Source: Candidatus Babeliales bacterium (GTDB lineage Bacteria > Babelota > Babeliae > Babelales > Vermiphilaceae). Taken from it: 64,000 nt of DNA. Shown here one piece after another: positions 5,630-12,721 of this stretch. A program made the translations under genes and the position numbers. Numbering within the stretch: the first letter of the stretch is position 1; each line of letters opens with the position of its first letter. Under the pieces are notes generated by a model. The model ran no database searches, had not been told where the DNA came from, and saw only the letters and a list, made by a program, of their open reading frames with translations. The DNA lies in NCBI GenBank assembly GCA_020049835.1, contig JAGVLK010000007.1, positions 1 through 64,000 on the forward strand. The letters run 5' to 3'.

Positions 5630-6586
5630 TTATGGACTTAATAGTATTAACATTGCTAATAAAAAGGCATAGATTGCACAGGTATCAATGATGCCTTGTG
5701 CGAGCATGCTCGTGCGTGAAAGTACACTATAGAGTTCAGGATGATGTGCAATAGTAGTACATGCGCTTGCAGATGTTCTTCCGGATGCAAGGCCGGGCCC
5801 CATGGTACCAAATGCCATGCAGAGTGCAGCAGCGATTGCAGCAATACCATAGAGCGGGGCTGTGGCATTAAAATACATGATCAACAACGCCGTTACTAAT
5901 GCAAAAATAATTGGTGTCTCGATAATGGCTTGGCTAATGATAGTAAATGCAAAAATGGATGTATATGCTTTGCGATTAATGCCTATGCTCGTGCATGCAT
6001 TAGCCGCATACATCGCCAGCCCAACAGCGGGCCCAATGCTGCCAATACCGATACACAATCCTGCTGCAATGCAAGCAAGAGATTCGTTTAACGTGGTTAG
6101 GCTGCCCGTTTTGAGTTTTATGAGCATGGCGATAATAAAACAGAAAATCATGGGCGTTTGTATGATCGTCTGCATGAGGAGCATAAAATTACGCAGCTTC
6201 GTTGCAAAAAATGGCTGACGTGCAATTGCCATGCAGGTTTGGCGCGCCGGTAATGCGGATGCAATACCAATAAAAAACCCGGAAATTGCGATGGCGGCAG
6301 CGATGCCAAGTTCTGCATAACGGCCATAAATAGTTTGATAATCGGTTGCTAAAAAAAGGAGCAACAATGATAAGCAAAGTCCAAATATAGCAACTGTTTC
6401 AATGAGTGCAGTACCAATCACCGCGCAGTTGATAATATCATGATGTGCTTTGGGTTGGATGTTAATCGCTTTAAGTGCAGCATAACCAACGATGCCTTCA
6501 CCAATGCCAACGCTAATTGAAGGTATGCCTATGGCAAGCGCGATGGTGCCATAGTGAATAAATTCTGAGCTTACAGTTAGTTCCAT
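5630..6586 (-). CDS. atpE: F-type ATP synthase c subunit, fused tandem of four hairpins
   Basis: The c subunit forms the ion-driven rotor ring of ATP synthase. A normal one is about 75-90 residues, one helical hairpin. This protein has 318 residues and reads as four consecutive hairpins, so about eight membrane helices. Each repeat has a Gly-rich first helix (for example GIGSIGPAVG, FGTMGPGLASG), a short polar loop (like IAHHPE in repeat 4) and a second helix where the ion-binding carboxylate belongs. Those positions are E63, Q143, E223 and D301, so repeat 2 has lost its carboxylate. E30 in the first helix of repeat 1 is an extra acidic residue. The ATG follows AAAGG. It lies 16 bases after atpB. 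Subunits b, delta, alpha, gamma, beta and epsilon are not in the window. A V-type proteolipid origin is an alternative, though the neighbouring a subunit is F-type. Confidence 0.85.
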   Translation of the reverse strand: MELTVSSEFIHYGTIALAIGIPSISVGIGEGIVGYAALKAINIQPKAHHDIINCAVIGTALIETVAIFGLCLSLLLLFLATDYQTIYGRYAELGIAAAIAISGFFIGIASALPARQTCMAIARQPFFATKLRNFMLLMQTIIQTPMIFCFIIAMLIKLKTGSLTTLNESLACIAAGLCIGIGSIGPAVGLAMYAANACTSIGINRKAYTSIFAFTIISQAIIETPIIFALVTALLIMYFNATAPLYGIAAIAAALCMAFGTMGPGLASGRTSASACTTIAHHPELYSVLSRTSMLAQGIIDTCAIYAFLLAMLILLSP

Positions 6587-6602: not shown

Positions 6603-7334
6603 TTAATCCTGTTCTTGTGTAATTGCTGTTGCTAAATAGGTTAAAGTGAGCATTGCAAATACAAATGCTTGTATACATCCTTCAAACAGCCCAAAAAACA
6701 GCTGCATGAGGAGGTTGAGTCCTGAAAATAATGCAGCAATTTGCAGCAATGTTGAGCCGTAGAGCAAGCTGAAATACATGTGGGTGATGGTTGCTCCACC
6801 AAAGATGTTACCAAAAAGACGAAACGATATGGAAACAATCGTTGCAATTTTACCAATTACATTGAGGGGGAGCATAAGAAAAAATGGCGCAAAATAATCT
6901 TTAATGTAGGCGATTAAGCCATGGGTAGCGATTGCATACCATTGCACATAGCAAAAAGAAAGTAAGCCTAATGCCAACGTGGTATTGATATCTTTAGTAG
7001 GTTCTTGCAATCCCGGAAAGAGCGATAGGCAGTTGCAAATAATAATATAAACAAGCAATGCAGTAACAAAAGAAAAATGTCCATGATTAAAAAAACCTAA
7101 CGTCTGTGTTGTCATGGTGCGCATGCTTTTGATAAGGTCGCATGCTATATAACGTGCAATACCGGAGGTACGTGTAATGGCAGTATGTGCAATAATGCCA
7201 ACAACCAAGAGTACTGCAAGTACAACCCAGGTGTTAATAATAGTCTCTTGATTGACATTAAAAAATGAGTGCGTGAGGCCTATCTGTTTAAATGGTTGCC
7301 AATATGCTTGGGAAAGAAGTTCAAGATTTTCCAT
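6603..7334 (-). CDS. atpB: ATP synthase subunit a
   Basis: Subunit a provides the stator half-channels for ion flow past the c ring. The 243-residue length and multi-helix hydrophobic profile fit. The essential arginine is in SISFRLFGNIFGG (R172), and the late motif LFEGCIQAFVFAMLTLTYL matches the conserved final helices of bacterial subunit a. The start overlaps the AtpI-like gene by 14 bases and has an AAGG Shine-Dalgarno. The fused c-subunit gene follows 16 bases downstream. The pairing of this single-arginine stator with a ring of four-hairpin protomers, one with Gln at the ion site, is the unusual aspect. Confidence 0.92.
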   Translation of the reverse strand: MENLELLSQAYWQPFKQIGLTHSFFNVNQETIINTWVVLAVLLVVGIIAHTAITRTSGIARYIACDLIKSMRTMTTQTLGFFNHGHFSFVTALLVYIIICNCLSLFPGLQEPTKDINTTLALGLLSFCYVQWYAIATHGLIAYIKDYFAPFFLMLPLNVIGKIATIVSISFRLFGNIFGGATITHMYFSLLYGSTLLQIAALFSGLNLLMQLFFGLFEGCIQAFVFAMLTLTYLATAITQEQD

Positions 7335-7605
7335 GAGATCCGGCCTTTTTGTATACTATGATAACCCAGAAGGCTATCAAAAAACATATTAAAGCCAGTA
7401 TAAAATGGATGCGTGATGTTAGCAACATATATAAACATATAAGAGAGAAAAGTACGATACGCGCAAGCGTATACAGCAGAATTGCTTTGGGATTGAAAGC
7501 CTGTTTGCCAGGGGTGTCGACTGTATGGGCCTTTATTTTAAAAAGCCCATACAGATAACCTACTAAACCACCTATGAGACAAGCCTGCAGAGCGGCTATG
7601 AACAT
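7321..7605 (-). CDS. AtpI-like small membrane protein
   Basis: A 94-residue protein with about three membrane helices and a basic C-terminus (YKKAGSHGKS). Its position directly before atpB with a 14-base overlap is the usual place of atpI, which helps c-ring assembly in other bacteria. The sequence itself is poorly conserved, so the call rests on size, topology and context. It follows the FolC-like gene by 7 bases. I see no strong Shine-Dalgarno, so it is probably translated by coupling. If it is an assembly factor, its partner would be the abnormal four-hairpin c protein, which is inference. Confidence 0.6.
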   Translation of the reverse strand: MFIAALQACLIGGLVGYLYGLFKIKAHTVDTPGKQAFNPKAILLYTLARIVLFSLICLYMLLTSRIHFILALICFLIAFWVIIVYKKAGSHGKS

Positions 7606-11499: not shown

Positions 11500-11940
11500 A
11501 TGCATAAAAAAGGTTTTACACTTATTGAACTTATGATTGTGGTTGCTATTATCGGATTTCTTGCCATCATTGCAATTCCCAGTTATAAAAAATTCTTAGC
11601 AAAAGCAAAACGCACTGAAGCGTACATGAATCTTGGAGCACTCGCAACTGCAGAAAAAATTTATCACGCTGAGCATGGTACCTATACTACCGATCTGCAA
11701 GCATTGGGATGGAAGCCGGAAGGTACTATTCAATATACCTATGGATTTGCAGGTGGAGAAGGTAAGAGTTTTGTTACCGGTCGTTTGGGTGCCGGCCCGG
11801 GTGAACTTACCGGTTCACGTGCAGATAAAGATGGCTTTGTTGCCGTTGCTGCCGGTGATATCGATGGTGACGGGCAAGCTGATGTGATTAGTATTGATCA
11901 GAATAATGAGATCAAGATTGTAAAAGATGATTTAAATTAG
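11500..11940 (+). CDS. type IV pilin / pseudopilin
   Basis: A type IV pilin subunit, 146 residues. The class III signal peptide is short: MHKKG, cleavage before F6, then [20 protein letters not shown] with the conserved E10 (Glu5 of the mature protein). It would be cut by PilD, encoded on the opposite strand 10 bases away. The C-terminal domain contains DIDGDGQAD (D120, D122, D124, D128), a DxDxDG calcium-loop-like motif similar to those in some pilins and pseudopilins. The ATG follows AAAGG. The pilus ATPase genes are at 55-57 kb. Whether it builds a pilus for adhesion or DNA uptake, or a type II secretion pseudopilus, cannot be told. Confidence 0.92.
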
Positions 11941-11950
11941 AAATGGTGTG

Positions 11951-12721
11951 TTAAAACCAGTTGTGCATCAGTTCAATAATCCATGACTGCCAGAAGATAG
12001 CGACAAAGCCACCAAAGGCTAAGAATGGTCCAAAGGGTAGTTTAACCGAGCGGCTGCTGCCGGAAAGCAAAATATACATGACACCAAAAAGTGCGCCGGT
12101 CCATGAGCCGACAAGAATGGTAATCCAAACACCAAATGGTCCCAAAAATGAGCCAATGAGCGCCATGAGCTCCAAATCCCCTTGGCCCAAGCCATGCTGC
12201 TTGGTAAATGCAAAAAAAAGTTTAGCGATAATGAGCAGGCTGCCATAGCCGATTAATGCTCCAAGAATACTTTGGTTAAAGGTGATGGGTAGATAGCCTA
12301 ATGCACCGCACACCATACCGACAGGCACCAGGCCAAGCGTTACAAGTGAGCTGATAAGCATCGTTTCGATATCAGAACGAATAGTTACAATAAGGGCAGA
12401 ACAAAGTAAGCCATAGGCAGGCAGATAGTGCAAGGGAATATAATAAAGGGCAAGTAAGCCAATAAGAACGGTAAGTGCTTCAATAAATGGATACAGAAAT
12501 GAAATTGGCTGTTTGCAGGTGCGGCAACGGCCACGAAGTGCTATCCAAGAAATAATAGGAATAGTATCGTACCAACGTATGGTTGTTTTGCAGGCAATGC
12601 ATCGAGAGCGTGGCCAGACAATGCTCTCGTTATGCACAAGGCGATAGCCGACAACGTTCAAAAATGACCCCCAAATAAGCAGCATAAGAACAATCCACGC
12701 GACAATAATAATGGGTATCAA
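11951..12721 (-). CDS. pilD: prepilin peptidase / N-methyltransferase
   Basis: An inner-membrane aspartyl protease that removes the leader of type IV prepilins and methylates the new N-terminus. The 256-residue protein has the two-domain form. The N-terminal zinc-binding pairs are C41-x2-C44 and C66-x2-C69. The catalytic aspartates are D117 (IRSDIETM) and D182 in the GLGQGDLELM motif. It starts with TTG right after the rbfA stop codon, so it is translationally coupled. The placement behind rpsU-rbfA is unusual, but the pilin gene is convergent and adjacent. Confidence 0.93.
   Translation of the reverse strand: MIPIIIVAWIVLMLLIWGSFLNVVGYRLVHNESIVWPRSRCIACKTTIRWYDTIPIISWIALRGRCRTCKQPISFLYPFIEALTVLIGLLALYYIPLHYLPAYGLLCSALIVTIRSDIETMLISSLVTLGLVPVGMVCGALGYLPITFNQSILGALIGYGSLLIIAKLFFAFTKQHGLGQGDLELMALIGSFLGPFGVWITILVGSWTGALFGVMYILLSGSSRSVKLPFGPFLAFGGFVAIFWQSWIIELMHNWF

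Follow-up and report, generated by a model that had tools for sequence, protein, structure and literature searches.

The window analysed here is a 64,000-nucleotide stretch of contig JAGVLK010000007.1 (assembly GCA_020049835.1) from the 1.44 Mb genome of a member of Candidatus Dependentiae (24 contigs, 96% complete), and our analysis concerns an intact open reading frame at 5630-6586 on its minus strand. The 318-residue product, which we refer to as c4, is a fused four-hairpin F-type ATP synthase c-like subunit, as the initial annotation had proposed. Pfam ATP-synt_C (PF00137) matches the protein in four stretches (E 2.3e-33), each hairpin alone exceeds the Pfam cut-off in the genome search, and the ion positions are occupied by E63, Q143, E223 and D301, just as they had been read. 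The top-scoring NCBIfam models are those of F-type subunit C, with 124 bits for F0F1 subunit C as against 60 bits for V-type subunit K. The features of the gene are given below; residue counts refer to the 93 distinct c4 proteins that we collected (310-351 aa) and support values to the tree of hairpins.

5630..6586 (-): c4, fused four-hairpin F-type ATP synthase c-like subunit, 318 aa (Pfam, NCBIfam and AlphaFold2)
6347..6562 (-): hairpin 1, about residues 9-80; Pfam stretch G000:C13:6359-6544; clade H1, support 98
6497..6499 (-): E30 in hairpin 1, at the place of the Na+ ligand Gln32; Q 52 and E 17 of 93
6398..6400 (-): E63, ion-site carboxylate of hairpin 1; E 89 and D 4 of 93
6101..6331 (-): hairpin 2, about residues 86-162; Pfam stretch 6119-6310; clade H2, support 99
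6212..6220 (-): R123-Q124-P125, the polar loop on the cytoplasmic side of hairpin 2; 82 of 93 read exactly RQP
6158..6160 (-): Q143, missing carboxylate of hairpin 2; Q 62, E 24 and others 7 (M 5, G 1, V 1) of 93
5867..6091 (-): hairpin 3, about residues 166-240; Pfam stretch 5879-6070; clade H3, support 87
5918..5920 (-): E223, ion-site carboxylate of hairpin 3; E 88 of 93
5639..5854 (-): hairpin 4, about residues 245-316; Pfam stretch 5645-5836; clade H4, support 87
5684..5686 (-): D301, ion-site carboxylate of hairpin 4; D 53 and E 39 of 93, hence a carboxylate in 92

Each unit of c4 is the two-helix hairpin of F-type subunit c, recognized by PF00137 and the F0F1 subunit C models, and in the window protein hairpins 1, 3 and 4 carry the ion-binding carboxylate of the second helix, with a glutamine in hairpin 2. 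A c subunit normally has one hairpin per protein; c4 has four fused, and is thus a variant rather than an ordinary c subunit. The AlphaFold2 model (mean predicted local distance difference test score, pLDDT, 94.4; predicted template modelling score 0.90) has helices that span eight membrane passes, which agrees with the eight or so helices counted in the initial annotation. A Foldseek comparison of this model with the PDB returned the c1 subunit of Acetobacterium woodii first (4BEM chain J; root mean square deviation 1.8 Å, template modelling score 0.76 on the target), followed by the V-type rotor subunit NtpK of Enterococcus hirae (2BL2) as the second-best fold match. The closest solved protein by sequence is likewise A. 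woodii c1 (E 1.7e-22).

A comparison of 98 individual hairpins, of the kind the initial annotation had envisaged, places H1 to H4 in one clade each, with the number of label changes at the possible minimum. Mean identity is 33-44% within one hairpin position of c4 and 20-26% between positions. We take c4 to have been made through tandem duplication and fusion of four c hairpins. Because each hairpin position forms a single clade, the fusion dates to one event that predates the common ancestor of the genomes sampled, after which the hairpins diverged separately. Apart from one chance pair, no DNA repeats were found inside the gene, so the duplication is old. Closely related c4 genes have ratios of nonsynonymous to synonymous substitution (dN/dS) of 0.03-0.14, which indicates purifying selection.

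The same fusion was sought in related genomes and is distributed throughout the phylum sample, which comprises 101 genomes from 77 genera, all inside one order; 68 of these are near-complete (completeness 90% or more, contamination 5% or less). A full-length match to c4, free of internal stops in the matches listed, is present in 96 of the 101 genomes and in all 68 near-complete ones. An ordinary single-hairpin c accompanies it in 92 of the 101 and, at the threshold used, in 67 of the 68; among drafts with one c match only, c4 alone is about as frequent as single c alone. In 95 genomes, subunit a has a single full-length copy; a few drafts have partial copies at contig ends, and a search of the 101 genomes for a second subunit a gave only two partial extra fragments, in drafts. 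The c4 profile found no relative in the viral contigs scanned, and tblastn on plasmids returned, above 20% of the query, only single c genes. A general contig scan for c4 returned two relatives only, one of them named Dependentiae, though its patterns reach close relatives only, so that it provides no evidence of absence outside the phylum.

Upstream of c4, on the same strand, lie two further genes with which it forms the order I-a-c:

6603..7334 (-): F-type subunit a (AtpB), sole copy in the genome; PF00119, E 1.7e-35
6819..6821 (-): R172 of subunit a, the essential stator arginine; present in all 91 aligned relatives
7321..7605 (-): small membrane protein of 94 aa, probably AtpI-like (a ring assembly factor), from its position and weak PF03899 matches

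Subunit a is therefore the normal F-type protein with R172 that had been described at the outset. The 94-aa protein is probably AtpI-like; PF03899 (ATP-synt_I) matches 4 of its 16 relatives, at best with E 0.002, and the window member itself has no match. The order folC, AtpI-like gene, a, c4 and glycosyltransferase is widely kept among relatives. In 91 of 93 distinct loci, c4 immediately follows the gene for subunit a, and in 33 the two overlap by 4 bases. The second c gene of the genome encodes an ordinary 79-aa single-hairpin c (G000:C17:28719-28958) and clusters with two b-like genes, delta and alpha; the two short b-like proteins hardly match known b models and are named from their position only, although the first has a single weak match to an NCBIfam model of subunit B. 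Contig C3 carries beta and epsilon and contig C6 carries gamma, so that the F1 subunits alpha, beta, gamma, delta and epsilon are all present, with one copy each of a, alpha, beta and gamma. The ATP synthase is thus complete, but its genes lie at four loci and include c subunits of two kinds. These loci read AtpI-like-a-c4, c-b-b'-delta-alpha, gamma, and beta-epsilon (L006:8719-11876, L012:4377-6052, L045). The ribosome-binding site predicted for c4 is no weaker than those predicted for a and for the single c. A V/A-type identity for the enzyme was ruled out by the F-type subunit a (PF00119), the F1 subunits and the NCBIfam scores.

The ion sites of c4 and of the single c (the latter counted in 40 sequences) have been retained to different degrees. 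In c4, the carboxylates at positions 63, 223 and 301 are nearly invariant, and the proteins have three carboxylates in 67 cases, four in 22 and two in 4. The three carboxylates per four hairpins proposed in the initial annotation therefore describe the window protein correctly but are not universal. The carboxylate of hairpin 2 splits two well-supported clades on the independent subunit a tree, glutamate being present in 22 of 23 members of one and lost in 66 of 67 of the other. With other c subunits compared, we infer that glutamate is ancestral in hairpin 2, a polarity read on an unrooted tree, and the carboxylate would then have been lost in essentially one event. One member of the clade that lost it, L029 (G013), has glutamate in hairpin 2 (EEEE), a possible reversion. 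In the single c, the Na+ ligands are kept almost throughout (Gln32 equivalent, Q in 38 of 40; Glu65, E in 39; Ser/Thr66 in 39), and the coupling ion is for this reason probably Na+. The Gln/Glu32 equivalent is present in c4 in hairpin 1 (69 of 93) and hairpin 3 (27 of 93) and not in hairpins 2 or 4; hairpins 2 and 4 mostly have Ser there, and hairpin 3 has Leu or Gln. Hairpin 1 of the window protein has Glu at this place, where E30 pairs with E63, as in 17 of the 93 proteins; this two-carboxylate motif (Glu32/Glu65) was described from Fusobacterium nucleatum (PMC3692424).

The loop between the two helices of a hairpin sets the c4 hairpins apart from one another and from the single c. In Escherichia coli, the RQP loop between the c helices contacts gamma and epsilon. 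The exact RQP sequence is found in hairpin 2 of 82 of the 93 c4 proteins and in hairpin 1 of 23, and in none of the 40 single c sequences (L006:8719-8958 and relatives), whose unusual stalk loop is mostly G-K-Y-P-E-S. The stalk loop is thus best preserved in the hairpin whose carboxylate one clade has lost, which suggests, as a hypothesis, that labour is divided among the hairpins of c4, with hairpin 2 serving the stalk.

The physiological setting of the enzyme is that of a host-dependent cell. Dependentiae are related to known intracellular parasites and have a host-dependent biology, and a reverse ATP synthase has been proposed for Chromulinavorax (PMC6561590). In the genome studied here, a search for the complex I/Mrp, haem-copper oxidase and Rnf/Nqr families found none, and there are three matches to ATP/ADP translocases (TLC; G000:C10:19312-20631, C13:104222-105532 and C6:133787-134059, the third covering only part of the profile), in keeping with its membership of Dependentiae. 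The genome also encodes a membrane pyrophosphatase with the motif GNTTAA (G000:C19:15344-17263, L178), a second possible ion pump; we take this motif to be the signature of the K+-dependent type. The suggestion in the initial annotation that the rotor may suit ATP hydrolysis fits host-dependent biology (PMC6561590), while the pyrophosphatase leaves room for either direction, and the idea of the ATPase as the only ion pump was dropped on its account. Elsewhere in the window, a type IV pilin-like protein by sequence (11500-11940, plus strand) adjoins a prepilin-peptidase-like protein (11951-12721, minus strand).

Taken together, we consider it likely that c4 is an F1Fo rotor subunit that sits in one mixed ring with several ordinary single c subunits and turns against the single subunit a. 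This reading is the likeliest because one a, one F1 and two c genes are kept together. The gene content matches that of a hybrid rotor such as the one of A. woodii: fused and single-hairpin c genes occur side by side in a genome whose a and F1 are single-copy, and one fused hairpin (here that of Q143) has no carboxylate. A rotor role is suggested by the place of c4 in the I-a-c order, by the near invariance of three of its four carboxylates and by the invariance of the stator arginine; a mixed ring is suggested, by analogy, by A. woodii c1, which is part of an F-type ring proven to be mixed, is the closest solved protein in sequence and fold, and likewise has a glutamine in place of a glutamate in one of its fused hairpins. 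In such a ring, several copies of the single c, encoded at another locus, would join c4 opposite subunit a, with one c4 (perhaps two) per ring placing hairpin 2 at fixed positions. In the clade of the window, this hairpin would bind no ion but retain the RQP loop, which touches the central stalk in other c subunits. The Na+-coupled F-type rings listed in PMC3692424 all have 11 hairpins; at this size, seven c and one c4 would carry 10 ions per turn, and three c and two c4 would carry 9. The fewer ions per turn predicted in the initial annotation would thus hold for a mixed ring, but the drop would be smaller, for example to 10 of 11 rather than 3 of 4. The enzyme would probably often work as an ATP-driven ion pump on host-imported ATP. 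A more specific version, which we put forward only tentatively, is that the ring is asymmetric, one c4 sitting at a set position among the single c subunits, and that its hairpin 2 has been converted from an ion carrier to a docking point for the central stalk, giving one skipped step per turn in one clade and none in its sister clade.

Several points weigh against this interpretation. That both c proteins sit in one ring is inferred, as are the ring composition, the ion and the direction. Low copy number of c4 is not supported by ribosome-binding-site strength, which failed as a guide because it did not separate c4 from the single c. Na+ binding by hairpins 2, 3 and 4 appears doubtful, as hairpins 2 and 4 lack the Gln32 ligand and hairpin 3 mostly lacks it too. 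Finally, given the membrane pyrophosphatase, the ATPase need not be the sole ion pump and may run in either direction, ATP synthesis included.

Among other explanations, the two c proteins may form alternative rotors on a shared a and F1, each ring being built either wholly of c4 or wholly of single c, with the ion-to-ATP gear switched between life stages. The genome does have two complete c genes, each in its own cluster, beside a single a and F1; rings of 8 or 12 hairpins could be closed by c4 without any other subunit, and its ribosome-binding site matches that of the single c in strength. We nevertheless regard this as unlikely: a single c that never has the RQP loop, beside a c4 whose hairpin 2 keeps it, is a better fit to a shared ring, and the proven precedent with two types of c, that of A. 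woodii, is a mixed ring. We know of no F-type synthase that swaps whole rings. Also improbable is a function of c4 outside the rotor, as a c-derived assembly scaffold, plug or membrane protein working with subunit a, the ring being made of single c only. Some ion ligands of c4 are degraded, and the gene sits with the AtpI-like assembly-type gene and a, apart from the c-b-b'-delta-alpha cluster, both of which would suit such a role; yet the conservation of the carboxylates of hairpins 1, 3 and 4 across 93 proteins would be hard to explain without contact to the stator arginine, and the predicted fold matches ring subunits.

The model closest to that of the initial annotation, a ring of c4 units alone with the single c marginal or in another role, appears very unlikely. 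It draws on the position of c4 directly behind a, the usual place of the ring subunit gene, and on the drafts with a single match, which have only c4 about as often as only single c. However, the single c occurs in the same genome, and both occur in 92 of the 101; it is also more conserved than c4 (mean pairwise identity 56%, versus 33-44% within the c4 hairpins), has a full ion site and clusters with delta and alpha. The notion that separate single-hairpin genes were wrongly joined in assembly or annotation, raised by the origin of the window in a draft of 24 contigs, can be rejected with near certainty, since the frame is uninterrupted in 96 independent genomes and the hairpins are position-specific in their tree and under purifying selection.

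The composition of a rotor fixes the ions paid per ATP. The phylum-wide co-retention of a four-hairpin c4 and a normal c, with four carboxylates in one clade and one of them lost in its sister, offers a natural contrast that opens questions of long standing to test: why rings gain fused or silent hairpins, whether these suit the reverse-run ATPase of a host-dependent cell and how an asymmetric ring meets its stalk.

Multi-hairpin c subunits are already known from V/A-type enzymes, and two-hairpin c subunits from a few F-type enzymes; to our knowledge, proof of mixed F-type rotors is confined to a few acetogens whose c1 has two hairpins. A search of the open literature (subscription papers being outside its scope) found no report of a four-hairpin F-type c or of such a c in Dependentiae. 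Among archaea, the c subunits of Methanocaldococcus jannaschii (three hairpins) and Methanopyrus kandleri (13 hairpins) are tandem-fused in one protein as in c4 (PMC2359735). These belong to V/A-type enzymes whereas c4 is F-type, each of the 13 hairpins of M. kandleri retains the full set of Na+ ligands, unlike those of c4, and no second single-hairpin c is described for them in that paper (PMC2359735). The V-ATPase proteolipids c, c' and c'' and E. hirae NtpK (2BL2) share with c4 fused hairpins and lost carboxylates, and in eukaryotes a mixed ring, but are V-type, with two hairpins (an extra helix in c'') and another stator. The F. nucleatum c ring has Glu at 32 and 65, like E30 and E63 in hairpin 1 of the window protein, but is a homomeric ring of single hairpins (PMC3692424), and the pair is present in only 17 of the 93 c4 first hairpins. 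Clostridium aceticum has a double-hairpin c1, with Q....QT in its second hairpin, plus a normal c2 (PMC7911925); its c1 has two hairpins where c4 has four. The best match in both sequence and structure is the Na+ F1Fo hybrid rotor of A. woodii (c1 with c2/3; 4BEM), which is F-type, has a fused c beside an ordinary single c and, like c4 of the window, has Glu replaced by Gln in one fused hairpin. It differs in that its c1 has two hairpins rather than four and that its c genes all lie in one operon with the rest, whereas those of the genome studied here lie in two clusters. A. woodii, moreover, is a free-living acetogen, while the c4 fusion spans a phylum of host-dependent bacteria.
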